DNA of 64,000 nucleotides, from positions 6,262,001 to 6,326,000 of the forward strand of contig NC_087074.1 in NCBI RefSeq assembly GCF_026151205.1. The letters run 5' to 3'. Shown here piece by piece: positions 613 to 56,123 of the stretch (positions within the stretch are counted from its first letter, which is position 1; each line of letters begins with the position of its first letter). The DNA comes from Bolinopsis microptera. Its lineage: Eukaryota; Ctenophora; Tentaculata; Lobata; Bolinopsidae. The notes beneath the pieces were generated by a model, which was given only the letters and a program-made list of their open reading frames with translations, had not been told where the DNA came from and ran no database searches. The translations under genes were made by a program, and so were the position numbers.

Positions 613-708
613 ATGGCAATAAGATTATTCAGAAGGCGGAGAAGATTACTTAAAAATTTGGGAATCTTTGGAATTATTTTAGTGATCGTAGCTGTTTACA
701 AAACAACA
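613..708 (+). CDS. MAN2A: MAN2A exon 1: cytosolic tail and membrane anchor
   Basis: 32 codons from ATG to a perfect GTAAGT donor at 709 (phase 0). Residues 6-11 are FRRRRR, followed by a hydrophobic run at about residues 12-29 ([12 protein letters not shown]), the expected type II signal anchor. A paralogous exon 1 of 31 codons with the same phase lies on the minus strand at 32329-32421. Confidence 0.85.
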
Positions 709-6700: not shown

Positions 6701-8500
6701 CAAATATGTTAGTCTGAATTTAAAATATATTAACAAAGTTATTGTATACAATCGAGATTTGAGTCTACATTTTAATTTAAAGATAAGCATTTCTGTTCAG
6801 TTGTATAACTGTAAGTGTGCATGAAACTTACATAAATTAACTGTATGTTCAAAAATTATTTAAATTTTCTTTAATCTTAGTTATTCAACAGTATTAGAAT
6901 CATCAAGACCGGAGTTTATCGTTATAAAGGGACCTATACGAGATAAAGCAGTTGTTACCCTCAAATTTCTTAGCGGGAGCACACTGGTACTTACTTACAT
7001 AGTGTATCATCACCCGGGTGAGACAAAACTCTTTTTGTGCTACTCTCATTCTCTGCAGTATCCTATACTTTTGTTTGTGTTTTATTTGGACTTAAGTATT
7101 CAGTGAACTTCAGTGAAATCTTTAAATTTTATGTTTTCGATTTGACTTATTTTACTGTAAGGGTTGGAGGGCCAGTTTGTGGAGCTGAAGATGATGTCAG
7201 ATTTAAAGGATTATGGTGATTTGGCTATCAGATTCAAAACTGACATCAAGAGTGGAGATAGTATCTTCACAGATCTTAACGGTCACACGATTCAGCAGCA
7301 CAAGTTTAAAAGGAAACTTCTAACACAAGGCAACTTTTTCCCGATGCCCTCAACAGCTTTCATCCAGGACTCCTCAACTCGTTTCTCACTTCTGGGATCT
7401 GAACCTCATGGGGTGGCTTCTCTTGCTGAGGGTGAGTAATCTTATTTGCCTTATTGCATCAGAAACTATTTGTTCATAGATAGACACTATTTGTAAAGTT
7501 GTAAGTACATGAATTAGATACATGTTGTATAATACATATGTGCGTGATGACTTTGACTTCGTTAGCGCTGTGTACATAATATTTGGCAGTAACAGTCAAA
7601 TTATTTTAAGGTTGGATCGAGGTTGTATTAGACAGAAGAACATTACAAGATGACCACAAAGGCATGGGGGAAAAAGTAGATGACAACGTACCCACCCCTG
7701 CTAATCTCCGTATATTGGTGGAAGCGAGATCAGAGACCCCGACTCAATCAGAGCTTTATATGGTGGAGTATCCATCTCTAGTCAGTCACATGACTCTTCA
7801 GTCCTTACTACATCCTCCTTTTTTACTGTCAGCAACTCTTGCTGAGAATTCTTCTCCCCACCAGCACCAAGTATTCAGCTAATGTAAGCTATTCTATATC
7901 ACTTTATTTGGAGGTTTCTGAAATTGTCTAAGAGTATTATAATCAGATTTATTGTCATAAAAACAGACACAATCATCATATTTCATTGCACTTGATACAG
8001 ATAACAAATAGCTTTACAATTTCTTTTAATTATCAGGAGATCTTTACCTTGTGACGAGGAGTTGGTAAATTTACGATACATTGGAAAACAAACTTCCCAA
8101 CTGATAAGAAGGAAGCTGGGATTTTCTTGCAATATTGACATGCCGGTCAGCTGTGATAACACCGATCTGGTACGTTTCTACTTTTTATTTCAATATTTTA
8201 ATCCTGAATCCAGTATTGAAATAGAAATACGGGTGTTTTGAAATTTCAGTATTGTAAATGTAACTTTGATATCATTATTAAGATTGATTAATTTATCAGC
8301 TTATACACAGAATGAACTTATCAAGCGTTAATTTTCAGAGTCTGAGTGAGATTTTCTTTGAAGATGTGACTATAGAAGACCACCCATTTTCAGCATTTCA
8401 TCAAAAATCCTATCCTGATAAAAGGAATTTAAAAGCAATGGAATTTTCATCAGAACACGTTACGTTTAATAATGGAGATTGGATTTGGAGTTGGACATAG
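613..8500 (+). CDS. MAN2A: Golgi alpha-mannosidase II (GH38), 19-exon gene
   Basis: Type II Golgi membrane glycosidase that trims mannoses from hybrid N-glycans after GlcNAc addition. I assembled 19 exons whose phases agree at every junction: 613-708, 1297-1446, 1657-1702, 2848-2925, 3161-3270, 3413-3706, 3877-3949, 4081-4166, 4382-4603, 4851-5221, 5336-5618, 5701-5831, 6176-6381, 6585-6707, 6892-7017, 7162-7431, 7611-7883, 8037-8169, 8339-8500. The coding total is 3,233 nt, one base short of a multiple of three because of a frameshift near 7850. Allowing for it the protein is about 1,077 aa, close to the 1.1 kb-residue animal enzymes. Zinc and catalytic motifs of family GH38 are present: HSHCDPGW (exons 4/5), WAIDPFG with the nucleophile Asp (exon 6), CDF at the acid/base site (exon 9) and [12 protein letters not shown] (exon 10). 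The ATG at 613 starts a short basic tail and a signal anchor. A Golgi rather than lysosomal enzyme is inferred from this anchor. Exon 15's acceptor is the least certain boundary. Confidence 0.93.
749..1055. repeat. (CCTTATT)n microsatellite in intron 1
   Basis: About 44 nearly perfect copies of a 7-bp unit, with two or three point differences near the 3' end. It lies 40 bp after the exon 1 donor. Because 7 is not a multiple of 3, the array cycles through three frames and yields the artefactual SLFLIPY-repeat ORF. Confidence 0.95.
1297..1446 (+). CDS. MAN2A: MAN2A exon 2: lumenal stem
   Basis: 50 codons, acceptor TTTCAG, donor GTTAAT, phase 0 at both ends. It is charged and poorly conserved, as expected of the stem. 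The C-terminal part [15 protein letters not shown] is matched by [15 protein letters not shown] of the minus-strand copy at about 31.8 kb, which is what identifies that copy. Confidence 0.85.
1657..1702 (+). CDS. MAN2A: MAN2A exon 3
   Basis: 46-nt exon encoding [15 protein letters not shown] plus one base (phase 1), acceptor TTTCAG, donor GTTTGT. The minus-strand paralogue has an exon of exactly the same length and phase at 30723-30768. Confidence 0.8.
1777..2544. mobile_element. Non-autonomous Tc1/mariner-like MITE in intron 3
   Basis: Terminal inverted repeats begin CAGGGTGGGCCAAAAGTCAG and end with its complement CTGACTTTTGGCCCACCCTG. Each end is flanked by TA (1775-1776 and 2545-2546), the usual target duplication of the IS630-Tc1-mariner superfamily. 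Imperfect inversion extends at least 150 bp inwards (both sides carry CTGGTTCGAGGA or its complement). No transposase ORF, so non-autonomous. Confidence 0.8.
2848..2925 (+). CDS. MAN2A: MAN2A exon 4: first zinc ligands
   Basis: Encodes [11 protein letters not shown]; the third and fifth residues of HSHCD correspond to the zinc-binding His and Asp (His90/Asp92 of Drosophila Golgi mannosidase II). The donor is GCAAGT, so the following intron is GC-AG; the frame requires this split, since G joins GA of the next exon to make the glycine of DPGW. Confidence 0.88.
3161..3270 (+). CDS. MAN2A: MAN2A exon 5
   Basis: Continues DPG with [13 protein letters not shown] and ends in the family motif KYIYAE. 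Acceptor AAACAG, donor GTTTTT; phase 1 in, phase 0 out. Confidence 0.87.
3413..3706 (+). CDS. MAN2A: MAN2A exon 6: catalytic nucleophile
   Basis: 98 codons: [27 protein letters not shown] and [13 protein letters not shown]. The Asp of IDPFG is the GH38 nucleophile and a zinc ligand (Asp204 in Drosophila). Most family members read DPFGHSP; here the His is Leu. Acceptor TTGCAG, donor GTATGA. Confidence 0.92.
3877..3949 (+). CDS. MAN2A: MAN2A exon 7
   Basis: Encodes [12 protein letters not shown] followed by LEFRWRQSW, matching the family pattern R-H-Y-x(n)-LEFLWRQ. Phase 0 in, phase 1 out; acceptor TTTCAG, donor GTAAAT. Confidence 0.88.
4081..4166 (+). CDS. MAN2A: MAN2A exon 8
   Basis: Encodes [13 protein letters not shown] and DTCGPDTN, corresponding to the family stretch LFTHMMPFYSYD...TCGPDP. 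Acceptor TTTCAG, donor GTTAGA; phase 1 in, phase 0 out. Confidence 0.88.
4382..4603 (+). CDS. MAN2A: MAN2A exon 9: acid/base region
   Basis: 74 codons: [20 protein letters not shown], then [12 protein letters not shown]. The family sequence here is LGDDFR; the second Asp, the proposed acid/base catalyst (Asp341 in Drosophila), is kept, but the first Asp is Cys. Acceptor CACAG, donor GTACTA. Confidence 0.9.
4851..5221 (+). CDS. MAN2A: MAN2A exon 10: active-site core and second zinc His
   Basis: 123 codons plus two bases. It contains [34 protein letters not shown] and [16 protein letters not shown]; the second His of QHHD is the fourth zinc ligand (His471 in Drosophila). Donor GTAAGT, phase 2. 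The best-conserved exon of the gene. Confidence 0.94.
5336..5618 (+). CDS. MAN2A: MAN2A exon 11
   Basis: Starts one base before a Leu codon to complete the split Met. It encodes the end of the helical domain and the start of the beta domain ([24 protein letters not shown]). The donor GTATGC is inferred from the join to [12 protein letters not shown]; an upstream GTACAG donor (cut after MFSN) is a possible alternative. Confidence 0.8.
5701..5831 (+). CDS. MAN2A: MAN2A exon 12
   Basis: Encodes [16 protein letters not shown] and [15 protein letters not shown], a beta-domain strand pattern of GH38 enzymes. Acceptor CACAG, perfect GTGAGT donor, phase 2. Confidence 0.85.
6176..6381 (+). CDS. MAN2A: MAN2A exon 13
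   Basis: Encodes [20 protein letters not shown] to [10 protein letters not shown] (last Gly split). Phase 2 in, phase 1 out; donor GTAATA. Confidence 0.82.
6585..6707 (+). CDS. MAN2A: MAN2A exon 14
   Basis: Encodes [10 protein letters not shown] and [17 protein letters not shown]; the [11 protein letters not shown] motif is diagnostic of the alpha-mannosidase II beta domain. Phase 1 at both ends; donor GTTAGT. Confidence 0.9.
6892..7017 (+). CDS. MAN2A: MAN2A exon 15
   Basis: The obvious acceptor CTTAG at 6880 would put TAG in frame after five codons. The next AG (6890-6891, AACAG) restores the frame and gives [16 protein letters not shown] through YIVYHHPG. Donor GTGAGA at 7018, phase 1. 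The acceptor choice is inferred from reading frame only. Confidence 0.72.
7162..7431 (+). CDS. MAN2A: MAN2A exon 16
   Basis: Encodes [59 protein letters not shown] and GVASLAEG; the FTDLNG, N-x-P-MP and LA-GE motifs match the GH38 C-terminal domain. Donor GTGAGT, phase 1. Confidence 0.93.
7611..7883 (+). CDS. MAN2A: MAN2A exon 17, with an apparent 1-bp frameshift
   Basis: Encodes [20 protein letters not shown], then a C-terminal domain segment up to LLSATLAEN. In this frame a TAA follows at 7879-7881, two bases before a good GTAAGC donor. The expected phase at that donor (2, needed by exon 18) is met only by the neighbouring frame from about 7850, which reads [11 protein letters not shown] before the join to RSLPCDEEL. 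The two frames connect if one base is missing in the AATTCTT run (7847-7853). It could be an assembly error or a real lesion. Confidence 0.8.
8037..8169 (+). CDS. MAN2A: MAN2A exon 18
   Basis: Encodes [30 protein letters not shown] and CDNTDL. The SLPCD-x(2)-L-NLR pattern is characteristic of the C-terminal end of alpha-mannosidase II. Phase 2 in, phase 0 out; donor GTACGT. Confidence 0.88.
8339..8500 (+). CDS. MAN2A: MAN2A exon 19: C-terminus and stop
   Basis: 53 codons ending in TAG. It begins [14 protein letters not shown] after a TTTCAG acceptor, the expected final beta-sheet segment of the enzyme. No clear AATAAA signal was found in the next few hundred bases. Confidence 0.85.
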   Translation, partial: SLSEIFFEDVTIEDHPFSAFHQKSYPDKRNLKAMEFSSEHVTFNNGDWIWSWT

Positions 8501-14280: not shown

Positions 14281-14904
14281 TTCCAAACCAAAATCAGATA
14301 TAAATGATTTCGGAAATTCACCCAGAATTTCAAATTCCATATAATGTGACAGAATTTACATCATTTCCCAATAACCAAGTGCATGTATTTGCTAACTTTT
14401 CAAAACAACATATTTTAGGGCTATGATTGGCAGAAGAACCATCAAATAATGAGTTGAAAAGGTTTTGATGACACCTCACAGTAGAAAAGAGGTATCGTAT
14501 TCTGAGTGTGACAAAGTTTACGAAATATTGCCTTAAAGCCGTTCGATCCGTGCCCTTTAACCAATGTTGTATCATAATTGTTAGATTGACCTAATCTACT
14601 ATATATCAGACCAAGGAATGATAATTGGGCAGCTATGGTAAACAATGTCACAAAAATGTGACATTTTTTACATTATAGTGCCTAAAAGCAATACATTTTA
14701 TTTCTGAGCAGTGCATATGGGAGTATGGGTCATGTGGCTAATGTTCAGAACTTATGAACACGCTAGATTAATAGATGCTAAAATTAAGCCACTATCGTCG
14801 AAAACGCTATTTTAGAAATTTACCAATATCCTCAAACTTCAATGAACGTGTCCATAAAATTATCATCAATCACAAAAGTATACTCTCTTTGAACGTAACA
14901 TATT

Positions 14905-17900
14905 TGGATCCCCCCTGTCCCCCCCGCCTGTCCACCCGTATCCCTCCCCCCCACCGTCCGTCCGTCCCCCTCCTCGTACCGTCGTCCCCCACCGGTCCCC
15001 CGTCCTCCCGTCCCCCCCCGTGTCCGTCGCTGCCACCGTATCCGCCGTCGCGTCCCCGCCGTTCGTCCCGCCGACTCGCCGCACGTACCCGCCATCCCCG
15101 CCCCGTCCCGTCCCCCCCGACGTCACAGGTCCCGTACCCACGTAGCCACGGTACTGTCCGCCCGCGGCGTCCCGTCCCAGTGCCGTATACCCGCGATCCA
15201 CCCGTGCACGTTCCCCCCCCCCACCGCCCCCCCGGCCCCCACCCCGTAAGGTCGTCCCCAGCGTCACCACCAAAGTTCCCACAACCGCCCCCCCGACCGT
15301 CGTTCCGCGGAGTCGTACCCATCCCCCACGGCGTATCGTCCCGTCCGCCCCCGTCAGCCGGCACCACACCAACGTCCGTCCCCGTCCGCGGTCCCCATCC
15401 GCCCCCCGCCGACCTCTCCGTATCGTACAGCCCACCTCCCCCCCCCCCGCCTTCCGTCCTGTCGCCCCCCCGTCAACGTCGCCCGCGTCGTCGCTCTGCC
15501 CGGGTCCCGCCCTCCCCCCGTCCGATCCTGTACCGTCTCCCCCTGTCACCCTCCCACACCCCCGTCGAGTCCCGTTCCCGGACTGTCGTCCCCCCCGTCC
15601 CCGCGTCGCCGCGCCCCCGTCCCCCCCGTCACCCCCCTCGTCCACGTTACCCCCCAGCCCCGTCGTCGGCCCGTCTCCGTCCGCCCCGCCGCCCTCCCCC
15701 TCGTCCACGCACTCACCCCCCGTCGCCCCGTCCACCGTCGGCGTCCCGTCCCGTATCGCGGCTACCCCGCGTCCCCCCACCCAACCGTCCCCCCACGGTC
15801 CGCCCGTCGCCCGTCGCCCCCAGTCACGTACCCCCCCCCCCCCGTCACCCTGTCCGCCCCGTCGCGTTAGCGTCTCCCCACCCCCCCCCGTCCCACCTAG
15901 TCCGCCCCCCCGCCCGCTATCCCCGGTCGCACCGTCCGTGTAGTCCGTCACCCCCGTCGTAACGTCCGCCCTGCGCGTCACCGTCCCCGTCTCCCCGGCA
16001 GTACCACGTCCCCCGTCCCCGCGCCCCCGTCCCCCCCCTGTATCGCCCCCCGTCCTCGCCCCCCGTCCCCCCCGCACGTACGCCCGTCCCCCCGTCCGTT
16101 TCCCGGTCCGTCGTCGTCCGTACCTGCCCGCCCCTCCCCCACTCTCGCCCCTCCCGACCGTCGCCCCCGTTCCCCCCGTCGTATCCCCTCCCCCGTGGCT
16201 CCGTCACACCCGTCTCCGTATATCCCGAGTTCCCCGTCCAAGTCGTCGGTTCCCCTCCCCCTGCACCCGTACCGTCCCCCGTGTCGTCCACCGCCTCACG
16301 CCTCAACCCGCCCACGTCCACCGTCCCCCCCCCATCCCCCACCGTACGTTCCGTACCCGTCACACCCGCCGGCCGCCCCGTCCGCTATCTGCGCCGTCCC
16401 GTATCGATCCTCCGCCCAACAGTCAAGTCCCCGTACGCGCCGGGTCTCGCCACCCCGACCCAGTTCGCCGCGCACCGCCGGCCCCCCCGTCCCGCCACCG
16501 TATCTGGTACCTACGTCCGTCCGCACGCTGTCCCGTCCACCCCCGGCCCCCCCGTGGCCGTCGTACCCCCGTCCGCGTCCAACCAGTCCCCGCCCCCGTC
16601 CCGCCCATCGTCCGTCCGCCCCCGCCGTATACGGTATTCCGTCCGTCGCCCCACCACAGCCCACCCGAGCGTCGTACCCCTAGGCGCCCAGGTCGTCGCC
16701 GTCCCATCGTCCGTCCCCCGCCCGTCCCAGCCCCGCGCCCCCCCACTGTCCCCCCAAGACACCTGCACGCCGTTGCGCGGAGCACGTCGCCCGTCACTGG
16801 CCAACGTCCGCGTCTCAGCCCCGCGTCGTCCGCCCCCCCGTACACACGCGTCCGTCGCCACGCCCGAGTATCGTCCCCGTCCGCCACGGTCCTCCGTCCG
16901 CTAAGCCGCCAGTCCCCAGCGTCACCCACGCACGTATCCACGCACGCCCGTGCGTTAGCGTCGTCCTCCCGTCCCCCGTCGCCCCCCCCCCCCCGTCGCC
17001 CATCCGTCGTCCGTCCCGGCGTCCTAGTCCCCCCGCCGTCCCCCGTGTCGCCGCGTCAGTAGCCACCCCCCCCGGACCCGCCCCACCCCGTCCCCCCCGT
17101 CCCATCGCGTCCGCGTCTCGTCGTCCCGCCCGCGCCGTCGTGTGTCCCCCACCAGTCCTGTCCCGTCCTCCCCCGTCCCTGGCGTCACCTCGCCCGTCCG
17201 GCGCGTATTCCGTATACGTTCCCCGTCCCACGTCCACTCGCCCCCGCGCAACCGACGCGTACGTTAGCACCCCGCGTCTCGTATCCGTCCCCCCGTATCC
17301 CGTCAGTACCGTCCCCCGTCTCTGAGCCAATCGCCCCGTTCCCGGCCGTATACCCGTCCCCGCCCCAGTCCGGCTGTTGATTCCCCCCCCCGAGTTCGCA
17401 CCGTCACGCCGCGCTTCGTCCCCGTCCCGTCACGCACCACGCTGCGCCGCGTTCCCTACCCCCCCATCGTAAACATAACCGCCCACCCCCGTCTCCGTCA
17501 GTCCCACGCGTCCCTCCCGCCCCCGTACCGTCCCCCACGCCGCTGCACCCCGTCTCACCCCCGTTCACGCAGCGTCACGCGCCACCCGTCACCAAGTATC
17601 CCCGTTCGGTCCCGTCCGTTACCCCGCGCCTCGTCGTCCGTCGCCCCGCCAAACCGCCGTAGACTGTCCCTCGCCCCGTCCCCGTCCCGTCGTCCCGTCC
17701 GTCCGTCCCCGTATGTCCCCGCCCGTAGCCGTCGTATTTCTCCCCACCCGTCCCCCCTCCGTATCTCGTCGAGCGTCTCCGTCGTCGTCGTCCCCCCCGT
17801 CGTCCCCCCCCGTCCCCGGTCCGTCCACCCCCCGGACGTCCGCCCGTCGTCAGTCGTCCGTACCCGCCGTATCCCGTCCGGTACTAGTCGTCCCCCCCTC

Positions 17901-20900
17901 TCGTCCCCCGCACGTCCCCCGCCGTCAGGTCGTCCGACCCCGTCGTCACCCCCAGGTCGTACCCGTCGTCCCCCAAGCCCGTCGTACCCCGCCCGTCCCT
18001 TCGCCCCCGACGTCCGTGTCCGTGTCGTCGTCGTAGTCGCCCCCTCCCTGCCCGCCCCCCCCTGTGTGTGGTTGTGTCACTCGTCCACGTCCGTGTACCG
18101 TACGGTATCGCACGGCCGTCGTTTCCCGTCAGTACCGTCGCGGTATCCCCTGTCCACCCTCCCCCCGCGCCCTCTCCCACGTCGTATTCCGCCCCCCCCC
18201 CCCCCCAGTCCGTCCCGTCCCCTCCCCGGGCCCCCGTGCGCGTCGCGCCCGCCACCCCCCCCACCCCGGCCCCCGCAGTCAAGCGTCAGGTATCCGCTCC
18301 GTATCTCCCTGCCGCCCCGCACCCGCGTCCCGTCCGCATTCGCCGTCCCCCTGCCCCGTCCGCCGCCCCCGTCCCCCCGGCACCCCCGGGCGCCCCCGTC
18401 GACGCCCCAGTCACGGTCCCCCCAGCGCCGGTCCTGTCCGTCCCCCCACCACCCGTCCCCGTCCGTCCCCCCCTAGTCACCGTCTCGTACGTCCCGTATC
18501 CCCGCGGTACACGGTCCCCCGCGTCCCGTCGGTCCACCGCTCCGCCGTATCATCCCCCCGTACGAGCGTCCGTCGTCGTTCGCGCCCCCTGTCCCACCTG
18601 TCCCGTAACAGTCGTCCGTCCGCCCAGGCGCAGTGTGTATCGCCCTCCAGCGTCGCCCCCCGTCCGTATTCCCCACGTAAAGTCCGAGCGCCCCCGGTCC
18701 TGCCACGTGTACCCCGTACCCCGCGCTCGTTAAGTATACCCACCCCACGTCCGACCAGCTACCCCACCGCCCCCGTATCACGCGCACCCCCGGCGTATCC
18801 CCAAGCACCCCGTATACCGACCCACCCCGTAAGTCCGCCCCGTCCGTAATACCCACGCCGTACCCCGTATCGCCCGTCCCGCCCCGTCGCCAGCTCCCCG
18901 CGCCCCTGTGCGCCGTACTACCGCACCGTCCGGTGTCCCTTGTCCCCCCGCGTCCCGTCGCCCCCCAGTATCGCTTACCCGCACACGTCCCCCCCCCAGT
19001 CCGCCGTACTCGTCGGCCGGAGTCCGTTCCACGTCTTGCCCCCACCCGTGTACGCCGTCCCACCCCGTCCCCCACGCCAGTCGTCCACCCCCGCGTCGTT
19101 CGTCCTCGTGTTACCACCCGCGTACCCGTATAGTCTGCTCCCCGTATATACCCCCGCCGTAACCTCGGACCACCCCCCCCAGCGGCCCCCCCCCCCACAC
19201 CCCAGTACCGTCCCCCCCCTCCCCCGCAGTCCCCCCCCACAACCCTCCTCCGTCGTATCCTCCCCCCGTCACGCCCCTGTATCGGTCGCCCGTCCACTAG
19301 TCTCCGTACCCGTCGCGTCCCGTCGTGCGCCCCACGCGAGAACCGTAGCCCCCGGTCGGTCTGGCCCCACCGGCGTCCGGTCGTCACGTCCATCCGCACG
19401 CGCCCGTGCCGACCCCCCCCCCCCGCCCCCCCCCCCGTCCCCACCGCCGCCGCGTCCGTATCGTCCGCACTGCGCGTCCACCGTCCCCCTGCCCCCCCGC
19501 CCCCCCCCCGTCGCCCCCCGCGCCCCACCCCCCCCACCGTGTGTCGCCGCCCCCCGTACACGTCGTCCCCGCCGACTCACGTATAGCCCCGTATCCCCCA
19601 GTCGTATCGCCCCCGGATCCGTCCTCCCGCGTATCCCCCCTGGTATCCCCGTCCGCCGTTCCCGCCGCGCCCCGTCCCGTCCAGTCGTCATTCCGCCCCC
19701 GTCCGTCCCCCCCGCCACCGCCCCCCCGTGTCCTGTCCCCGTCGTCGTAAGGCGTCCCGTGCACCCGCCCGCTCCGCACAGTCGTCCCGTTATCAGCCGT
19801 TCGTCAGGCCGACCGTATCCAACCACCGTCCAGTTATGCGTCCCCGGTCCGTCCACGCCACCCGCCGTACCCCGAGTCCGCGTATCGACCGCGCCCCCCC
19901 CACCCGTCCGTTACCCGCGCCCCCCAGTAAAACCCCCCACCCAGCACGTCGCCGTCACTGTCCCCCTGTCCGACCCAGTTACACCAACACCGCCGGTTAT
20001 ACACGTCGGTAACCAACAACCGCATACGGTCGCCACACGTCCCCCCGTCCCCAGTCCCACAGTACCCCCGAGCCACGTACGTCCCACCCAGTCCCGTTCG
20101 TCCCCCCACCCCGTACCCCCACCCTTCCGAAGCACGTCCGTCGTATACGGACCGTCAGTCCCGTCGTCCCACCCGCCCCCCCGCCGTCCCCGCGTATCGT
20201 CCGTCTACGTGCGCGTCCAGCCGTCCACGTTATACTAAGCGTCCCCCGCCGCACCCGGTCCGTCCCGGCAGTCCCCCCAGTAGCGCCGTCCGTCCCCCCC
20301 CGCCGTCCCCCCGTTCCCCGTCGCGGCGTGCCCTCCGTCCCGTACGGTACCCGCCGTCGCGCGTCGCAGCCCCGCCGTGTATTTCGTACGTCCCCCCACC
20401 GTCCCCCCCACGTACCCCACCTCCCCCGTATACCCCGTTCGCCACCGTCCCCGTCGCCGTCCGCCCCCCCGTCGGTCCACCCGCAGCGTCCCGACGCCCC
20501 CCCCCGTACCGTCCCCCCGTATGTAACCCCCCGCCGACCCCCCAACGTCGTCCGCCCGTTCATGTCCGTCCGTCGTCCGTCGTCCACGCGTCGTCCCACC
20601 CGTTTCCGTATCCGTCCCCGCCCCCCCCACCGCGTCCGTCCCACTGCCCCCCCCGTACCCCCCCCGCGTCTGCCGTTTCGTCGTCCCGCCGTACCCCCCC
20701 CAGTCGTACCCGCACGTCCGTCCGCCGCACCCGCCCGTCCCCGCACCCGCCGTCACGTATCCCCCCCCCGCCCGTCCCCGCTTCCCCGCCCGCACGTCCC
20801 CACCCCGTCCCCCCGCGCGTCCCCCCCGTCAGTCGCGACCCACTGACCTGCATCGTACCACCCGTGGATCCCCCCCGCACCCACGCCGCCCCCCCTGTCG

Positions 20901-23900
20901 ACCCCCCGTATCGTCCAAGTCCACCGGTCGTCCCCGTCGCGTCAACCCGACCGTTTCAGTCCCCCCACCGACCGTCGTACCCCAGGACCCCTCCCCCACC
21001 CCCTCCACGCCAAACGCCCAGTAACCAGCGTCTCCCCCCCGAATGTCGTCCCCGGCTTATCCCAAACGCCCCGCGCCCCCCTCGTCCAGATTTTTATACC
21101 GTACGTCCCCCCGCCCGTTGCCGTCCCCGGCCCCTCCCCCGTCCGCGCACCGCCACCACACTCCCGTTACCGTATATCCTCCGTACCCCTCCAGCCCGAA
21201 GTCCGCCCCTCCGTCCGTCCCCCCGCCCCCCTGCGCGGCCCCCCCAGTCCCCGCCGCCCAGTCCGCACGTCCACCGCCTCCCGTCCGTATCCCCCCCCAC
21301 CCGCCCACCCCCACAGTATGAACCGTGCGCCCCGTCGGCCCGCCGCCCGTACACCCCCGCCTCGTCCCCGTCCCCCCGCGCGTCCCAGTCGTCCCCCCGT
21401 CCCGTATCACCCCGGCCCCCCCGTGCACGCCGCCCATCGCACCCCCGTCCCCCGCCCGCGTACGGTCGCCCCCCCCACGTCACCCCTACCGGTCACCCCC
21501 CCCCAGCCCCCGTATCAGTCCGTCGTATCCCCGCCCGTCATTCCCCCCCCCGCGCCCCCGCCCCGGTCGTCGCCGCCGTCTATTGCCGGGACCCGTGCCC
21601 CGTCACCGTATCCCGTCCCGCAACCCCGCCCCGCCGTCCTCCCAACCGTCCGTTCCCGTCCGTCCGTCGTCCGTGTCCCGTTACGTCGCGACGTATACGT
21701 CCCCCGACACAGCGCCACGTCCGCGTCACCGTCCGTCACCCCCCCCGTCCCCGCACGGTACGCCGTCGCCCATCCCCCCGTCCCCTCCTCCGTCCGTATA
21801 TCCGTCAACACCAGCGTCCTACCGTACGCGCCGCCGTCGCCCCCCGACACCGGTCCCCGCGTCCGCCCCCCCCGCGGAAGTCCCCCCCATCCCCCCATCG
21901 GCCCGTCCCACGTCCGTCCGCCACGCGCCCCCCGCCCCCCCCCCCCCGCCCCGTCCGTCGTCCGCGTCCCCCAGTCCCGTCTGCGCCCCCCGCCCACGTA
22001 TCACCCGCCGCCGTCGCCCGTCTGCGCCCCCCGGTCGACCGCCGCTCCCGTCCGTAGTCGTCCCTCCCGTCTCGCCCCCCCGTTACCCGTCAGCCCCCCC
22101 CCCCGCCGCCTCCGTCCCCCCCCGCGTCGGTCTCCCACCCCCCCTGTACCCGTCCACACCCCCCACGTCCCCGTCCGTATCCCCGTCGCCCTGTCTTCGC
22201 GTATCGTCCCCCCCCCCCCCGACGCCCGCCCGACGTCTCGCCCCGCCCCTAAGTATCCGCCCCCGTTCTCCTTTCCCCACCCAGGGGCATGACCGTCCGC
22301 GTATGTACGCACGTATTCGCCCCCCCCCAGTATCCGCCCGCGGGTATCCCCCCGTCGCGTCCACGCCCCCCCGCTCCGAGTCACGGAGCCCGTCGTCCCG
22401 CCCTCGTCGCCAGCCCGCAACCGCAGGCCCCTGTCAGTCAGTCCCGTCCCGCGCATGACGTACCCCGGGCCGCCGTATCGTCCCGTATCGGACGCGTAAG
22501 CCCGTAGTCAAGTCCCCGGCGTCGTGCGCACCCGTCCAGTCGCCCTCCGTACGTCCACCACTATCACTCCCCCCACAGTGGTCGGCAAGTCCGTCACCCA
22601 AAGTATCCCCCACCGCGTTCACGTCGTCCCCCCCGTACACACGGTCTATCCGGCGTACCCCGTCCCCTCCCCCGTATGTCGCCCAGTCGTAGCCACTCGT
22701 TAGTCCACGTATCCCAGTCGTCCCGTCCGCGTCCCCCCCCGTCGGCCCGCCGTATCACGTCCGAGCGTATCGTCAGTCCGTCCGCCCCCACGTATCTACA
22801 GTCCCTGATACGTCCGTCCGTCGTCGGCCCCCGCCCGCCTCCGCGTCCCCCCCGCGATCCCAGGTCCCCTCCGCGACTCCCACCGGCCGTACAGGCGCCT
22901 GTCCGTTCCCGTCCTCGTCCGCGTCCGCGTCCCCCACGTCGTGTTCTGCGCCTGCCGGCCCGCCGGTCCCGTACCCGCCCCAAACGCCGTACCCCACTAG
23001 TCCCACGTCGTCCCCTCGGCGTCCGCTGGTCCCGCCGCGCGTCCCTTCCCCCCACCCCGCTCCCGCGCCCCGCCGACCGCGCCGTCAGTCCGCCCGCCGG
23101 CCTCCCCCCCCCGCCGCCCCCGGTACGTTCGTCCCGTTCGCCCCCACGCCCTGGAGTTCTCCGTAGCGTCGTCCGTAGTCGTAATCCCTCCCGTCCCTCC
23201 CCGTCCCCCCCACCCGTATCGCCCCGCGTCACCCCAGTCACCGTCCGTCCCTACCCGTACACGCGTCACGGCCGTCCTCCGTACGTCCCCCGTTCGCCGT
23301 CCGAAGTCCCCTGCGAGCCGTCGCGTCCCGCTGTCCCCGCCCCGTATGCCCCGTCCCTCGTCGTCCGTCTAACCCCCGTCCCGCCCGCACGCCGTCCCCC
23401 CCCCGGTCGCCGTCCCACCCGTACACCCACCCCCCCGCCCCACACCCCGTCCCCGCCCCCGTCCGTCCTGTCCCCGTCCCCCCGCCACCGCGTCCCCCCC
23501 GGTATCCCCGTACCCCCCCCCCGTCCGCCGTTCCCCACCGGTCTGCCCCGTCGTCCCCCCGCCCCGTCGCCCGTCCTGCGGTCGCGGCCCGTACGGTCAC
23601 CCACGTCCCCGTCCCCCCCCTCGTCCCCGTACCCCCCGCCGTCCCGTCCCCGTCGTTCCGTCGCGCAGTATCCCCGTCCCCCCACCGTTGACGCCTCCCC
23701 CGCGCTCTCCGAGCACGACGTCCCGTTCGCCCACGTCCCCCCCCCCGTCCTCGTCACCCCCGTCCCCCCCCCCCGCACCCCCGCCCGTGCCCATACCACC
23801 GTAGGCGACGTCATCACCTCCGCACCGGCCGCCCACAAGCCTCCCCGCCCAGCCCCCGTCTCGCGTCGGCGGTCCGCCACGGTCCCCCACGTCCTCCGTA

Positions 23901-26900
23901 TAGGCAGCCCGTCTGTCCCCAGTCGTCCAAGCCCGATAGCCCACCTGACGCTCGTCGGCCGGTATCCACACGTATCCCCCCCCCCCAGTCGTCGACGTCG
24001 CTGCTACCGTTTTCCGTTCGTCCGCGTCGCCGTCCGCGTCGTCTCCCCCCCCCCTCTCGCACCCTCGCAGACCCGTCTCCCCGTATCCCTCCCCCCGCCA
24101 CCGTATCGGCCCCGTCAGTCCCCGTCCCCCTCCGTCGCGCCCGTATCCACCGTTTCCCTGTCCCACCCGTCCACCGTCACCGCACCCCTCCCCACGTCCG
24201 TCCCCACGCCCCGATGTCGTCCCCGACGAAGTCCCCCCCCGCTACCCACGACCGTCGCGTGTCGTACCAGTCCCCCGCCCGGGCCCGACGTTCCCGACTC
24301 CCCCTCCCACCACCCGTCCCCCGTATCGTCCGTCCGCTTTCGTCCCCGTCGCGTACCCGTCCGTAGCGTCGCCCCCCGTCCGCCCCGCCTCGTACCCCGC
24401 TCCGCTCCCCCCCCGTCCCCCGTCGTCCAACGCGTGGCGTATCCGGGGCCACCTCTCACACGAGTACCCCTCCGTATCGTACCCCACGTCCCGTATCTGC
24501 CGCCACCCCCACCGCCCGCTGCCCCCGTCGTCCAGTCGACGGTAAAGTCCCCCCCGCCCGCCCCGAACCTCCGTCCCGTCCCAGTACCGCCGCGTCGTAT
24601 ACCCGTCGCCCCAGTCCACGTAAACGGTACCGTATACACGTCCTAGTCCGTCAGCCCAGTCCCACACGCGCGTCCGGAGTTTTACCCCCGTCCACCAGCG
24701 CCGTCCAGTCGTCCATCCGTGGTCCCCCCCCTCCCGCCGTACTCCGCGGAAGTACGGTACGTTTACCACCCCCTCCTGCCCCCGTGTCGCCAGCAGCCCG
24801 TCCGTCCCGCCGCGCCTCCCCCCGCACCCGTCCAGAGTATCCCGTAGCCGTCAAATCCCCCCCCGTATCGCCCGTTCCCGCCGTCCGACGGGTCTCGTCC
24901 CCGCCCCTCGCGGCCCGGTACCCCCGTCCGGTCCCCCCGTCGTCCCCCCCCCTCGTCGTCGGCCCGTCCGCGTACCTTCCCCGCACCGGTTCGTACCCTC
25001 GTCCGACGTACGCCAGCCCCCGTACCCCAGTCGTACCCCCCGCCCCCAGCCCCCGTTTTCCACCGCGCCCCCCAGGTCCCGTCCGTTGGTCCGGCTGGTC
25101 CCACGTCTCCCGGCCCCACACGAAGCGCCGTAGTCCCGTCCCCAGTCGGTCGTAACCCCCGGCGCCACCAGTTATCCGTCGACCCCCGCGACGCGTCCGC
25201 GTCCCCGACCGGTCCCGTACGTCCCCCCTGTCCTCGTCCCCGCCGCGCGTAGGAACGTCCCCAACCCCCGCAATGCCCCCAGTGTATCCCCGTCCATCCA
25301 GTATCCCCACCCGCCCCCGCGTCCCCCCGCCCCCCGTCCCGCCCCCCCCCCGTCGTCACCAACTTCCCGTCCCCCCGTCCCGTCCCGCCGAGGCCCCCCA
25401 CCCCCGGTACCTCCCCCCCACGTAAAACGCGTACCCGTCTAGGTCGTTCCCCACACCAGTACGTCCCCGAGCCCCCCCCCGTCCCGCCCCCCTCCCCCCC
25501 CGCGCGTTCGCGTCAGGCTCCGTACCCCCCGCCCCCCCCGTCGTACCCCCCCCCGTCGCCACCCCGTCCACACCCCGTGTTCCCTGGTCACACTCTACCG
25601 CCGCGTCGTCCCCCCCGTCCCCGTTAGCGTTGCGGCCCCCCACCCCGTCGTCCCACCCCCGCGGTCCCCGTCAGTCATGCGTCACGACGCCGTTCCCGTA
25701 TAAGGCCGCCTCCCCCCCGCGTCCCGTTGTCCAGTACCCGCGTCGGTCAACCGTCCCCGCGCCCCACTAGGTCCCGTATCCCGTACCAGCCGACGTACCG
25801 AGTCAACACCCCCCCACGCTCCCCCCCCCACGCGGCCCCCCACCATACCGCGAGTCCGTTCGTTACCGCAACCGCCAGCCCGTCACCGTCCGGTTCCCGT
25901 CCGGTATTATCCCCGTCCGCCGTCCCCGTCCCCCCGTTACCAACCGACGTCACGTCGCGTCCCGCCGCCGGTCCGCCGGTCACCTTCCGCAGTTTCAGTA
26001 CCCCCCTAGCGTACCCCCCCCGCCACGACGCCCACGTCACCGTATCCGTAGCGGCTGCCCGCCCGTACCCGTAGCGTCGGCCACGCCCGTCCGTAACGGC
26101 CAGTGTGTTCCATCCCACGCCCGAACGTCGTCTCCCCCCCCCTCCCCGACGTACGCGTCCCGAATCGACGTCCCCGCCCCCCGCCGGGCGTACGCCCCCC
26201 CCCCCACCGTCGCCGTCCACGTCCTGCCGCCCGCCCCGTCCCCGCCCCCTGCCCCGTCCTCGTCGTATATCCGCGTCGGTCCGTCTCTAACGTCCCGCTG
26301 GTCCCAGTACCCCCACGTCGTCCGTCCCGTCCGTCCCCCCCCCCGCCGTCCGTCCGTCACCCAGCGCGCGTCCAGATTCCCGCCCCGCTCCGCCCGCCGC
26401 CCCCCCCCAGTACGCGCCCCCCGCCCGTACGGTACGTAATCCCCCCCACCCCACCCGCTACGTCCGTACGTCCGCCCTGACACCCCCACCCCCGTCGTCG
26501 TTCCCCCCTACTACTCCCCGTCGTCCGTCCGAGCACCCCGTATTCGCCCGTCCTCGCCCCCCGCGTTCCCGTCCCGCGTTGCCCCCCCCCGCGTCCTCAC
26601 GTCCCGGCCCCCGCCCCCCGCGGCCGCCCACCCCCCGTCGTCCCCGCGCCACGTCGCCGGTCCGCCCCCCGCCCGTATCGCCCCTGACTCGTGCCCCCCG
26701 ACCGTCACCCGTCCCCCGCCCCCCGAACCGCCACCGCGTCAGCCCACCCGCCCCAGTCCCCCCGAAGTAGTCGTTCCCCGCCGCCCCCCCCCGTCCGTCG
26801 CAGGTATCGTGCCGCGAGTCCCCTCGTCCTACCACACGGTCGTCCACGTGTCGCGCCGCAGCCCCGTCGGCCACCGTTACGCCGCGTATACCCCACCAGT

Positions 26901-29900
26901 AGTATCTGGAGTATCCCAGTATCCTCCCCCCTCCGAGCCCCCCGTACCGTCCGTCACGTCCCGTTTCACCCCCCCGTCGCACGTCAGTCGTCCCCGTACG
27001 CCCGGGCCCCAGCCGCCCCCGTCGTTCCACGTACACCCCGGTCGTCGTCGTCGCCGTCCGTAGTCCCCCCGTCCTCGTCGTCCCCCCGTCCGTCTCGCAC
27101 CCCCCTGTCCGCGTCCCCCCGTCCACGTATCCCCACCCGTCCCCCCCACCCACCCGTCAGTACGTTTAGTATTCCCCCACCCGTCCCGACCACCCGCGAC
27201 CCCAGTCGCCCGCCCCCCCCCCCCCCCCACACCCCGTCCCCCCCCCCGTATCCGTCCCCACCACACCGTCCCCCGTCCCGTATCCCGTCCTCCCCCACGC
27301 CCCCAAAACGTACCTGCGCCGCCGTATAACTCCGTCCCGGCCGACCCAGTCGTCCGGGTACCCCCCCGGCGTCGGAGTCCGTCAGGTCGTGTGTCGTGTC
27401 CAAGTCCCCGGTCCGTTCTCCCGCCCGCCCGCGCACCCGTATTCCCCCCCCACTGTACCACGTCGCGCTCGTCCCTCTCGTCCCACCCCCGGTCGCGGTC
27501 CCCTGCTCCGTCTGTCCCCCCCCCCGCCCCCCCCGCCCCCTCGTCCCCCCCCCCCCACCCCACCCGTGTCCCCGTCCCCGTCCCGCCTCCCCGTCCCCTC
27601 GTACCGTCCCGCCCCCCACGAACCCGCGTCACGTTCCGTTCGGTCGTATATCTCGGCCCCGTATCCAGCCCGGCCCCCGCGCCCCCCCCAGCCCCAGACC
27701 CCACCTTCGTCCGCTCCGTCGTCGGTCCCCCCCGCGTCCCCCCCCCCGTATCGTCGGCAACGTCGCCCCACCCGCCCGTATCCAGTCGCCGTACCGTACG
27801 CCCCGTACCGTCCCGCCCGTCGGCGCGTCCCCCGTCACCCCCCGCGTCGTCCCCCACGCCACACCCGGGGTCGTCCCGTCGTCCCGCGCCGCCTACCGCC
27901 TCCTAGTCGTACTGACGGTATCGTCCACGGTCCACCACCCACCCCGTCCTCCGTCCACCCCGCCCCGTACCCCCCCCCGTCGCGTACCGGTCCGTCCCCC
28001 GCCCCGTACCGTCGTCTCCCCACCGTACCCTCCTGGCCCCGGATGTCACCAGCGTCCCGTCCTCCCGTCTCCCGTCCCCCCCTGCAGCCCCGCACGTCCC
28101 GGTCCCGCGCCCCGTACCCCTCGTCCCCGCGTCCCGTCCCCCGTTCTCGTCCCCCACCGTACCACCCGTCCCATCGTCCCCAGTACCCCGGCGTCCTAAT
28201 TCCGCCACCCCGCACGCCAGCCGTAGCCGCGCGTTCCCCCTCGCCACGTCCGTCACCCCTCCCACCCGCCCGTCCGCTGCCGCGTGGCCGTCGCTCCCGC
28301 ACCTGCCCCCGTCGTCCCTCCCCCCCCACCCCGCCCGCCCCGCGCCCACCCCCCTGGCCCCGTTGACGTATCCCCCGTTCGCGTCCGCACGCCCCGTCCC
28401 CTTCCGCGTCCCCGTACCGTCCGTATTACCCCACGTCCCCCGTACCCGCCCTCGTCCGCCCCCCCCCCCTCGCCCCCGCCCCGTCCCCCCTGTCCCGGCG
28501 GAGTCACCCCGTCTCGTACTGCCTATGCCGCACGTCCCCGTATACGTCCCCCCGTCCCCCGCCGCCGTTCCGTCCGTATCGACCCGTATCGTCACCCGTC
28601 CCCCCCCCCCGCGTACGTCCGCGTCGTCCGCGCGCCTCCCCCGCATGTATCCCCGTCGGCGTTACATCGGTCGCCACGTATCCCCCCGCCCAACCGTCGT
28701 CACCGTCCCCCCCCGCGCGTATATCCGCGTCGGCGCGTCCCCCCGCGTCCCCGTCCCCCCGCGCCCGTCCGTCCCATGAGTCCCGTACCCCCCCCCCGTC
28801 CGTCGTCCCTGTGGTCCGTATCCCGGATCCACGTCCCCCCGTAACCCCGTCGTATCCCCCGGCCGGTTCCCCCCGTACGTCGGTATCGGTCGTCCCGTCC
28901 GCGTCGTCCCCCCCCCCCACGTCGTATCCCCTGTATCCCCGCGTATCCGTCTGTCCCCCCCCGCGTCGTATCGTCGTCCGGTACGTATCCCCGAAAGTTT
29001 CGTCACCCCCCGTTATCGTCGTCAACCGCCGTTCGCTGTCGTCCCCCCGTCCGTCCCCGTATCACCTCCCCTCGCCGTATCCGTATGGCCGTCCCGTACC
29101 CCGTCCCCGTATAACGCCCCGTCCCCCCCCCCCCCCCACCACCCCCACGCGTCTCCACCCCGTCCAGTCCGCCCGTCGCCGCTCCGCGCCGTCGTCCGAA
29201 CGTCGCCCAGTCCCTCGCGCCCGCCACTCGCGTCAGTACCCGGCCACGCGCGCCGGTGTCCACGGCGATCGCCTGGCCGACGTGTCCCCTGTCGCAGCGT
29301 CGTCGTCCCCGTCCGGTCTCCGACCTGTCGTCGTATCCGTCCCCCGTACCGGGCCCAGCCCACCGTTCCGCGTCACCGGTCCGTTCGTCCGCGCTGTCCG
29401 CGCTGCCGCCCGCGTACCCTCCCCCCCCCCCCCGCCCGTACCGTACGTCCCCGCGTCCCCCCGTACCGTCCCCCGTCCGCCCCCACGTCCACCCGTATCC
29501 GCCACCCTCGGCTCCCCGTCGTCACGTAGTATCCGCGTCCCCGTGTACCCGTATCCGTCCCCCGTCGCGGCCGAGTCCCGTGCCCGTCAGTCGTCCCCGG
29601 TCCCGTATCCGCGTCCGTCCAACCCCCGTATACGTCCCCGTACCCGCGCGTCCTCCACCCCCGTCCCGTCGTCCGTATCACCCCGTACCGTATCGTCGCC
29701 TCGTCCCGTCCCCCCGCGCGTCGTCCGTCCGTCGAACCCGTCCCCGTCACATGCGAGCGTATACGTCCAACGTCGGTCGTACCTTATCCCCCCGAGTCCC
29801 CCCCCTCCCTCGTCGTCGTCCCCCCCCGTCGTCGCGGATAGTCCCGTCCGCCCCCGCCAGTCGTACCCGTATCCCCCCGTCCCCCGTTCTCACCCACCAC

Positions 29901-30340
29901 CCTGTCCGCCCGTCGACGCCGTCCCCCTCCGTATCCCCCGCGTATCCGCCACCCACCTGGATCGCAAGTCCGGCTATCGTCCGCCCGCTCAGCCACGTGC
30001 CGCGCAGTCGTTCCGTCCCCCCCCCCGTCCCGGTCCCGCCCGTCTCCCGTATCGTCACGTCCCGCGTCCGTCCCCCCCCCCCCGCCCCGCCCCCCCACGG
30101 CCGCACGTCGCGCCCGTCGTCGTCCCCCGTTCCCCCCGTCCCCACCTCCCCGTGTACCGTCCCCCGTCCCCACCCCCGCCACCGTCCCCCTTCGTCCCCC
30201 CGCGTCGCACCCCCGTCCCGCGTCCGTCCTCCGCCCCCGCCCGCCGTCCGCGGCCGCAGGTCCAGTTATAACCGTTGCCAGTCCCGTCGTCCTCCCCCCG
30301 CCCCGTATAGTCCGTCCCCCACCCCGCCCCCGTCTGTACC
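14905..30340. repeat. 15.4-kb C-rich low-complexity block
   Basis: The plus strand is dominated by C. In 14941-15000 I count 38 C, 11 T, 8 G and 3 A, and in 25501-25560 36 C, 13 G, 8 T, 3 A. Most G lies in CG, usually followed by T; the recurrent words are CGTCC, CCCCGT and CGTAT, without a fixed tandem period I can see. Borders with AT-rich DNA are abrupt at both ends. The long Pro/Arg/Ser (plus) and Gly/Arg/Thr (minus) ORFs exist because stop codons are rare in this composition; they lack domains, introns and starts worth annotating. A diverged satellite or an assembly/base-calling artefact are both possible. Confidence 0.85.
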
Positions 30341-30722
30341 CTATTTGATCATTTTGAGCCAATAAAATTTTTTTAGAATTTTGCTAATTAGTTAATTGAT
30401 AATTATCCAATTAACTTATTATCTGACGTAAAAATTGTTTGAATAAAAGTTTTTCTTCCTGATAATATGAACACACTCGATTGATCCGCAACCTTTTACG
30501 ATGTTCACAACTAAAGATATTCGACAAACAAGAAAGGTGGTAAAAAGTGGTAAAGTGGCAAAAAGTGGCCTTACGACACGTGGAAAAGTTTGGAAAAGTT
30601 GGTCAGCCATAAAGGACATCTATTAGGACTCAAAAACGTCAAAAGTCCTTTGTAAGCTTTGCGTGTCAGCAGATCGATTTTTTCAGACGGATCTGTCTGT
30701 ACTATTAGTGCAACAAATTAAC

Positions 30723-30768
30723 CTAATGTTCCTTGCTCGAATGGGAGATTTTCCACCAAATCCGATAC
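30723..30768 (-). CDS. Second mannosidase copy, exon 3
   Basis: 46 nt, VSDLVENLPFEQGTL plus one base, acceptor TTTCAG, donor GTTAAT, phase 1; the same length and phase as the intact gene's exon 3. Confidence 0.72.
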
Positions 30769-30860
30769 CTGAAATGAATTTATGAGCCGTAGAAATATTT
30801 ATTGACCATAATTGACTTTCACGATCAGAAGCAACAAAGTATAACTTCTTTTCCACTAAC

Positions 30861-31834
30861 CTGCAGATCCGCCCCATTGTGATGTACCTACACTTAGTAA
30901 CTTACCTGCAGATCCGCCCCATTGTGATGTATACACTTAGCAACTAACCTGCAGATCCGCCCCATTGTGATGTATACCCTTAGTAACTAACCTGCAGATC
31001 AGCCCCATTGTGATGTGTACCCTTAGTAACTAACCTGCAGATCCGCCCCATTGTGATGTATACCCTTAGTAACTAACCTGCAGATCCGCCCCATTGTGAT
31101 GTATACCCTGGCCTTAGTTACTAACCTGCAGATCCGCAGTCCGCACCATTGTGATATATATATCCTTAGTAACTAACCTGCAGATCCGCCCCATTGTGAT
31201 GTATACCCTTAGTAACTAACCTAAAGATCCGCCCCATTGTGATGTATACACTTAGTAACTAACCTAAAGATCCGCCCCATTGTGATGTATACACTTAGTA
31301 ACTAACCTGCAGATCCGCCCCATTGTGATGTATAGTGTATACCCTTAGTAACTAACCTGCAGATCCGCACCATTGTGATGTATACCCTGGCCTTAGTTAC
31401 TAACCTGCAGATCCGCCCCATTGTGATGTATACCCTTAGTAACTAACCTGCAGATCCGCCCCATTGTGATGTATACCCTTAGTAACTAACCTGCAGATCC
31501 GCCCCATTGTGATGTATACCCTTAGTAACTAACCTAAAGATCCGCCCCATTGTGATGTATACCCTTAGTAACTAACCTGCAGATCCGCACCATTGTGATG
31601 TATACCCTTAGTAACTAACCTGCAGATCCGCCCCATTGTGATGTATACCCTTAGTAACTAACCTGCAGATCCGCCCCATTTTGATGTATACCCTTAGTAA
31701 CTAACCTGCAGATCCGCACCATTGTGATGTATACCCTTAGTAACTAACCTGCAGATCCGCCCCATTGTGATGTATGCCCTTAGTAACTAACCTGCAGATC
31801 CGCCCCATTGTGATGTATACCCTTAGTAGGGGAA
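30861..31834 (-). repeat. 43-bp tandem array made from an exon/intron junction, 22 units
   Basis: Units start (plus strand) at 30861, 30906, 30949, 30992, 31035, 31078, 31126, 31179, 31221, 31264, 31307, 31357, 31405, 31448, 31491, 31534, 31577, 31620, 31663, 31706, 31749 and 31792. On the minus strand each unit holds the last ~30 bp of exon 2 (TATACATCACAATGGGG, GCGGATCTGCAG) plus a GTTAGT donor and a few intron bases. Unit 22 abuts the unique exon and unit 1 abuts the unique intron, so the array arose by duplicating the splice junction. Three units (31221, 31264, 31534) have CTAAAG for CTGCAG. Confidence 0.92.
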
Positions 31835-31971
31835 CATCTATTTTGGACGCTTTCAGCTCTTCCTTCCATTGTGCAGTGTCCGGATGAGAAGATGGTTTGA
31901 GATGTGATAACAGGGGAAGACTCACTCGTAGTCAAGGATGCCAAGGTAGGGGTTGAACACTGTCCATAAAG
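31792..31971 (-). CDS. Second mannosidase copy, exon 2
   Basis: 60 codons, acceptor TTTCAG, donor GTTAGT, phase 0 both sides. It starts LYGQCSTPTLASLTTSESSP and ends [21 protein letters not shown]. Only the first donor (after 31792) keeps the frame open; reading into the next 43-bp unit gives VSY and a TAA. Confidence 0.7.
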
Positions 31972-32328: not shown

Positions 32329-32421
32329 CGTGTCATTTAAACTGTGTATGGCGAAGATGGATAAAATACCAAGAATACCCAACAGTCCTATCTTCCTTAA
32401 TGTACAAATCCTCATACTCAT
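32329..32421 (-). CDS. Second mannosidase copy, exon 1
   Basis: 31 codons from ATG: MSMRICTLRKIGLLGILGIL then SIFAIHSLNDT, a short basic tail and signal anchor, with a GTAAGT donor (phase 0). A four-codon upstream ORF (ATG at 32433, ending in TAA) precedes it. Confidence 0.7.
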
Positions 32422-35289: not shown

Positions 35290-36528
35290 TCAATAAATCA
35301 ATGAACCGCGTGACACGCGGTTCATTGATTTATTGATTTATTGATTTATTGATTTATTGATTTATTGATTTATTGATTTATTGATTTATTGATTTATTGA
35401 TTTATTGATTTATTGATTTATTGATTTATTGATTTATTGATTTATTGATTTATTGATTTATTGATTTATTGATTTATTGATTTATTGATTTATTGATTTA
35501 TTGATTTATTGATTTATTGATTTATTGATTTATTGATTTATTGATTTATTGATTTATTGATTTATTGATTTATTGATTTATTGATTTATTGATTTATTGA
35601 TTTATTGATTTATTGATTTATTGATTTATTGATTTATTGATTTATTGATTTATTGATTTATTGATTTATTGATTTATTGATTTATTGATTTATTGATTTA
35701 TTGATTTATTGATTTATTGATTTATTGATTTATTGATTTATTGATTTATTGATTTATTGATTTATTGATTTATTGATTTATTGATTTATTGATTTATTGA
35801 TTTATTGATTTATTGATTTATTGATTTATTGATTTATTGATTTATTGATTTATTGATTTATTGATTTATTGATTTATTGATTTATTGATTTATTGATTTA
35901 TTGATTTATTGATTTATTGATTTATTGATTTATTGATTTATTGATTTATTGATTTATTGATTTATTGATTTATTGATTTATTGATTTATTGATTTATTGA
36001 TTTATTGATTTATTGATTTATTGATTTATTGATTTATTGATTTATTGATTTATTGATTTATTGATTTATTGATTTATTGATTTATTGATTTATTGATTTA
36101 TTGATTTATTGATTTATTGATTTATTGATTTATTGATTTATTGATTTATTGATTTATTGATTTATTGATTTATTGATTTATTGATTTATTGATTTATTGA
36201 TTTATTGATTTATTGATTTATTGATTTATTGATTTATTGATTTATTGATTTATTGATTTATTGATTTATTGATTTATTGATTTATTGATTTATTGATTTA
36301 TTGATTTATTGATTTATTGATTTATTGATTTATTGATTTATTGATTTATTGATTTATTGATTTATTGATTTATTGATTTATTGATTTATTGATTTATTGA
36401 TTTATTGATTTATTGATTTATTGATTTATTGATTTATTGATTTATTGATTTATTGATTTATTGATTTATTGATTTATTGATTTATTGATTTATTGATTTA
36501 TTGATTTATTGATTTATTGATTTATTGA
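35290..36528. repeat. (TTTATTGA)n, about 150 copies
   Basis: A perfectly regular 8-bp array of about 1.2 kb with no interruption that I can see. It begins in a palindrome (AATCAATGAACCGCG, TGACA spacer, CGCGGTTCATTGATT) and ends at TTATTGAATAATATATTG. Confidence 0.97.
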
Positions 36529-43998: not shown

Positions 43999-44007
43999 TA
44001 TTATAAT

Positions 44008-55990: not shown

Positions 55991-56123
55991 GATTACCGGT
56001 TTAGAATGAGTCTTATCAGTTGCTATTGATCGTGCTATCACATACCCCAAAATACAATAAATAATATTCTGCATCTTTTATTCTAAATAAACACGTATAG
56101 GGTCAATAGTATAGATTACCCCT

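Follow-up and report, generated by a model that had tools for sequence, protein, structure and literature searches.

Tandem arrays of exon-intron junctions recur in the Bolinopsis microptera genome: a 22-unit array in a mannosidase-family copy and its counterparts at other exons

The array-bearing mannosidase copy

The window analysed here (64,000 nucleotides of Bolinopsis microptera DNA) contains an array-free copy of a mannosidase-family gene on the plus strand and, on the minus strand, a copy whose second exon ends in a tandem array (Table 1). Exons 1-3 of the array copy are open with intact splice sites, and its exons 2 and 3 match other GH38 copies, so that homology extends over the N-terminal region. 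An earlier sequence-only reading had placed the array at exon 2 of a mannosidase gene on the minus strand. The exon assignment agrees with an exon end and intron start common to five other GH38-family copies; the gene itself stands as far as exons 1-3, beyond which a 15.6-kb C-rich block is found instead of convincing exons 4-16. A search of the minus strand below 30.3 kb with exons 4-16 of the plus-strand copy gave no match better than E 0.39, and a GH38N search found no orphan catalytic part beside the array copy. Because the copy is known as exons 1-3 only, followed by the C-rich block, its transcript is not assured. The block (C 54%, G 20%, T 16%, A 10%) has a sharp right edge and skewed dinucleotides (GT 3.3 times, TA 2.0 times and CT 0.3 times expectation), a 1-kb probe from it matches itself only, and it is possibly an assembly or base-calling artefact. 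Since it intervenes below exon 3, an assembly fault could account for the absent exons; the array copy may be a 5′ fragment, or a gene with its remainder hidden by faulty assembly.

Table 1. Features of the window (positions within the window unless a contig is given) and junction arrays at exons elsewhere in the genome
Feature	Position	Strand	Unit length or donors	Remarks
Array-free GH38 copy	613..7852	+		exons 1-3 at 613-708, 1297-1446 and 1657-1701; more exons to at least 7852
C-rich block	14800..30360	.		starts 363 bp after exon 3 of the array copy
Array copy, exon 3	30723..30768	-		46 nt, VSDLVENLPFEQGTL; acceptor TTTCAG, donor AG/GTTAAT
Tandem array of exon end and donor	30855..31828	-	22 units	small insertions in five units
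Donor 22	30855..30860	-		GTTAGT, followed by non-repeated intron sequence
Donor 21	30900..30905	-		the one GTAAGT of the array
Donor 1	31786..31791	-		GTTAGT, sole frame-keeping donor
Array copy, exon 2	31792..31971	-		its final 37 bp form the first array unit; start inferred from TTTCAG just upstream and the open frame
Array copy, exon 1	32329..32415	-		MRICTLRKIGLLGILGILSIFAIHSLNDT, then GTAAGT; weak similarity to exon 1 of C5 copies (E 0.008-0.05)
Five copies sharing the exon-2 end	window plus-strand copy; C5 2.646 Mb; C2 21.236 Mb; two at C5 6.52 Mb
Two sushi-like exon arrays			34 and 54 bp	Pfam E 0.024 and 0.0026, under cut-offs
Amino-acid permease-like exon array			about 55 bp	AA_permease E 0.0034, under cut-off
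Axonemal dynein heavy chain exon array			57 bp, 5 donors	PDB E 3e-7; AAA_9 E 6e-4, under cut-off
C2H2 zinc-finger exon array			31 bp	sole host exon above Pfam cut-off
Img2-like exon array			44 bp	PF05046 E 1e-7, just under cut-off
ADAM-like exon array			44 bp	Reprolysin E 6e-4, under cut-off
SMC2-like exon array			61 bp, about 44 donors by position	PDB SMC2 E 6e-24
Membrane-protein-like exon array, two places			32 bp	sense donor GTACTT; searched motif antisense

TRF reports 22.0 copies with a period of 43 and 90% matches, and when the array was cut at its donors, AG/GTTAGT or AG/GTAAGT (the slash marks the exon-intron junction) was kept at all 22 junctions, in agreement with the 22-copy, 43-bp junction array described earlier. 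Sixteen of the 21 donor-to-donor spacings are exactly 43 nt, and the other five are 45, 48, 48, 50 and 52 nt. Each unit consists of 37 bp of exonic sequence, more than the 30 bp or so previously estimated, and 6 bp of intronic sequence, with no microhomology at the duplication joint. Every unit does carry a donor as the sequence-only reading stated, but the donors are not all identical: GTTAGT is found at 21 of the 22, and donor 21 (+1 at position 30905) is GTAAGT. The three altered -6 to -1 contexts that had been noted are those of units 7, 13 and 14, which end in CTTTAG where the rest end in CTGCAG. An in-frame TAA 12 nt past donor 1 (read-through adds V-S-Y-stop) is taken in by all of donors 2-22; thus only donor 1 keeps the frame, as had been claimed, and the proposed birth of this satellite from an exon/intron boundary is supported, exon 2 having its 3′ end in the first unit. 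Across the assembly (264.65 Mb), all seven matches to a 215-bp array probe and 21 of 23 matches to a 22-mer (at most three mismatches) lie inside the array, the other two having three mismatches; the unit is confined to one locus. The structure is not due to chance, and its head-to-tail units, within the 10-100 bp range of minisatellites, run across an exon-intron junction.

The window also contains an inverted repeat with arms at 37256-38181 and 44007-44923 (927 bp, 98.5% identity) that enclose CGTCTC/GGAGAC and TCCTTG arrays, another at 9280-9861 and 10048-10637 (596 bp, 94.6% identity, about 190 bp apart), 150 copies of ATTGATTT with 100% matches at 35324-36528, and 40 copies of a 21-bp unit at 56118-56969.

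Sister copies and a second array in the family

In the plus-strand copy, intron 2 begins after the same codon as in the array copy. A PDB search with its joined exons 2-6 found alpha-mannosidase 2 (E 6e-35), the match beginning at exon 4. Among its exons, the one at 3413-3706 gave the GH38 N-terminal domain (E 4e-27), the one at 7161-7433 gave the GH38 C-terminal domain just under the cut-off, and the one at 5337-5618 had no family match. On the catalytic exons of this intact copy, the family is identified as Golgi alpha-mannosidase II (GH38). Endo-alpha-mannosidase (GH99), considered as another host family, gave no match, which is uninformative as the controls were blank too; GH38 fits. The end of exon 2 (...HHNGADLQ or near) and exon 3 (VSDLVE...) recur in five array-free copies (Table 1), in all of which the intron directly follows the Q codon and in none of which is there an array at that place. 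The intron is therefore older than the window array.

Several irregularities were observed among the sister copies. The plus-strand copy has 44 copies of TTCCTTA (748-1055) starting 40 bp into intron 1, and its exon 4 (2880-3160) seems by eye to end in GACCCAG/GCAAGT, a GC donor, at which the C5 and C2 copies have GT. At C5:6518500-6528400, two near-identical partial mannosidase copies are separated by 4.9 kb; by eye, the sequence ahead of each looks mobile-element-like, and in one of them exon 4 is continued by its own end in inverted orientation and a C run.

In the C2 copy, homologues of exons 2-6 and of exons 8-16 follow one another in order (the queries did not include an exon 7), and this copy possesses an array of its own. 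The end of its exon 4 (...VPHSHCDPG) together with the donor GTAAGT is repeated with a 66-bp period, giving 11 donors (L038 3361-4091), and this array is independent of the window array. As 66 is a multiple of three, read-through is open across all 11 units, and use of the later donors would repeat HSHCDPG, taken here to be a putative metal-binding motif, up to 11 times in the protein.

Junction arrays elsewhere in the genome

To treat the window array as one curiosity, as the sequence-only reading did, is too narrow, for the genome contains many such arrays. The donor-like motif AGGTNAGT occurs three in a row with a period of 30-60 at 7,695 places (3,963 + 3,732) compared with 421 (194 + 227) for the reversed motif, these being counts of motif places rather than arrays, in which arrays of shorter period may match at a multiple. 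Single occurrences number 41,920 (20,637 + 21,283) and 37,635 (18,935 + 18,700), respectively, so that a three-in-a-row array is started by 18% of donor-like motifs and 1.1% of control motifs. When array counts are set against single-motif counts in this way, the donor motif is approximately 16-fold above the reversed motif, per motif. For AGGTAAGT with a period of 61-91, the 1,700 places compared with 9 reversed overstate donor use, due to an antisense coincidence in two membrane-protein-like arrays. The AGGTNAGT matches listed (at least 100 places) fall into five arrays, all plus-strand and all at C1 0.40-0.94 Mb; a minus-strand array at C1:36.6k, which is among the AGGTAAGT matches and should match AGGTNAGT too, is nevertheless absent among those for AGGTNAGT. 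By rough extrapolation from the matches listed, there are perhaps a few hundred arrays at donors in the whole genome.

Exon-donor junctions were found in ten of the 14 arrays among the matches listed (all five for AGGTNAGT and five of nine for AGGTAAGT), or 12 arrays with those of the window and the C2 copy. The host exons are diverse (Table 1). The Img2-like protein had no PDB match, a Pfam search with the SMC2-like exon returned nothing useful, and the membrane-protein-like exon, which had no Pfam match, is called from an open frame common to two loci. For the permease-like, Img2-like and ADAM-like arrays, joining the exons across the array gives a continuous protein as read from the sequence: the partner exon of the permease-like array continues it as MLGA/GIFVITPS, and the next exon of the ADAM-like host is ECIASDPCCEPIGCKLKPGAK, presumably disintegrin-like. 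A stop is reached 4-48 nt past donor 1 in ten of the 12 exon-donor arrays; the two without an early stop are the array of the C2 copy and one sushi array, which is open across the 317 nt read. Of the remaining AGGTAAGT arrays, those at C2:2667k and C1:3114k, read opposite to the strand of the searched motif, are non-exon arrays that start by eye at +1 and about +11 of an intron, and two more had no evident exon. The dynein exon beside its donor array (C1:884500-885700) also holds an internal coding tandem duplication.

Acceptor-like motifs were counted in the same way. TTTNCAGG occurs three in a row at 1,549 places compared with 209 reversed; single occurrences, counted in 121 kb of DNA and not genome-wide, are 38 compared with 10. 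In the same 121 kb, single motifs number 21 and 15 for AGGTNAGT, 7 and 2 for AGGTAAGT, and 12 and 26 for GGTAAGT. Among the matches listed there are at least 13 acceptor-motif arrays, five of which were looked at. One is a real acceptor array (C2:7804851-7806288), in which 45-bp units contain a 3′ splice site and exon start, and beyond the last copy lies an open exon (QLSQNLWWLLENGGPPAPIEVPVTQPPDPYFEGVVLKAMTSLIQ); the other four could not be shown to be acceptor arrays.

Origin, persistence and relation to known systems

The window array is probably a minisatellite that arose when 43 bp spanning a pre-existing exon/intron junction were duplicated in tandem and then expanded, and one of many recurrent junction minisatellites in this genome. 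It would have started as a tandem duplication of this segment with little microhomology and grown by slippage or unequal exchange. It could persist if the spliceosome takes the donor nearest the exon body, the remaining array leaving with the intron; use of the exon-proximal donor would explain why the array is tolerated. The reading frames are consistent with first-donor use, and the SMC2-like and dynein exons, in which later donors add stops, suggest sufficiently frequent use of the exon-proximal donor.

The breakpoints bear on how the arrays arise. The unit reaches +3 to +24 on the intron side in the eight of the 12 arrays that were measured (all but the permease-like, dynein, zinc-finger and ADAM-like arrays). 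The intron-side breakpoint is 3, 3, 6, 6, 8, 16 and 24 in seven arrays, which rules out a breakpoint fixed at +6; a single difference at +3 truncates the value for the Img2-like array to 2, and a negative value for one sushi array arises because its consensus exceeds the common unit by two bases. Microhomology is 0-8 bp in the six arrays free of upset by sequence differences. Low microhomology and variable breakpoints fit ordinary tandem duplication followed by expansion. They are also what would be expected if arrays arise anywhere, with no donor-specific process, and those that span donors survive because splicing hides them. This explanation is a serious one, though its chance is somewhat below even. 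Tandem repeats are abundant in the window (105 TRF rows, overlapping, many of them in the C-rich block), and the acceptor array on C2 and the excess of acceptor-like motifs in arrays indicate that donors are not the only splice sites involved. Against it, reversed motifs are 16 times rarer in arrays per motif, and the intronic starts of the two antisense-motif arrays (+1 and about +11) hint at a site preference. The opposite proposal, that in this genome the 5′ ends of introns are mutational hot spots of tandem duplication, perhaps via transcription or donor recognition, with hundreds of genes carrying arrays of up to tens of donors and the exon-proximal donor reliably used, is tentative; if it is true, the genome is a large natural experiment on donor choice. 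The over-representation of donors may reflect either simple tolerance or a hot spot.

The array copy might instead be a dead 5′ fragment, the donors of which never meet a spliceosome. This is possible, if doubtful: only exons 1-3 were found, with neither exons 4-16 nor an orphan catalytic part nearby, but the C-rich block may conceal the rest of the gene, and the open exons and intact splice sites are accompanied by pN of 0.07-0.13 and pS of 0.63-0.77 in comparisons with three other copies (26 codons of exons 2-3). This pattern indicates a protein that was constrained for most of its history. Moreover, SMC2-like and dynein exons carry arrays too.

Selection for the arrays, either as spare donors or as a source of unproductive splicing that lowers expression, is unlikely. 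In 127 ungapped units of ten of the 12 arrays (all but the permease-like and dynein arrays, exon copies not being counted as units), no GT was changed, whereas the rate in the rest of the unit predicts 2.5 changes, and a single change was seen in the last two bases of the exon; in the window, all 22 donors are intact. However, changes are more frequent at the remaining donor positions (+3 to +6 and -3; 22 of 635, most of them at +3 of one array) than elsewhere in the unit (49 of 4,906); the arrays are also young, with about 1% differences, and intact motifs were used to find them. As the units of an array share ancestry and are not independent, neither variability figure proves selection.

Recursive splicing, in which zero-length exons have juxtaposed AG/GT, would make each unit a mini-intron or ratchet point and remove the array stepwise. 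All 21 intervals have the form GT...AG (43-52 nt), TACTAA is present in most, the unit of the zinc-finger array has a pyrimidine-rich stretch before CAG, and stepwise removal would yield the same mRNA. The GT...AG form is automatic, however, once an AG/GT junction is duplicated, and the window unit shares the juxtaposed AG/GT but has ACAATGGGGCGGATCTGC before the AG, not an acceptor-like pyrimidine tract, so that this explanation is very unlikely. Gain of the intron by tandem duplication is rejected by the intron at the same place in five array-free copies, and insertion of an introner by the confinement of the window unit to its locus, where near-identical dispersed units would be expected.

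Studies of how duplicated donors compete have mostly used constructs of a few sites. In the present genome, the number of donors in cis at exons of conserved proteins ranges from 5 (dynein) to about 44 (SMC2-like), mostly with an early stop, and RNA-seq of this species would show how strict the choice of the exon-proximal donor is and what effects rank, distance and a GTAAGT among GTTAGT donors have. The excess of donors in arrays raises the question of what makes splice junctions prone to duplication. Introners likewise place many similar splice sites in one genome; unlike them, the arrays examined differ in sequence, save for one unit common to two loci.

Two known systems are closer. In human genes of segmental duplications, internal tandem repeats occur at exon-intron boundaries (De Grassi and Ciccarelli 2009, PMC2812944); the units there are reported to be 30 bp on average and repeated 4 times, with 27 intron modifications in recent paralogues. 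Those repeats resemble the present arrays as exon-intron minisatellites that alter gene structure and splicing; the present arrays differ in having up to about 44 donors and in hosts that include SMC2-like and dynein exons. In the Rogers model, tandem duplication of an AGGT-containing exon sequence leads to intron gain, as in a potato case (PMC4974935, which cites 24-bp repeats of fission yeast in the same context), and tandem duplication of an AG/GT segment is described in Drosophila as a route to new introns (PMC2891723). The window array is similar in that an AG/GT segment is duplicated in tandem to give GT...AG units, and dissimilar in that its intron predates the array and the acceptor lies outside it. 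No report of donor arrays across a genome was found in the literature searched, most subscription journals being outside it. The present arrays differ from these systems in how many units they have, in an intron that was there before the array, in recurring across one genome and in the nature of the host exons.
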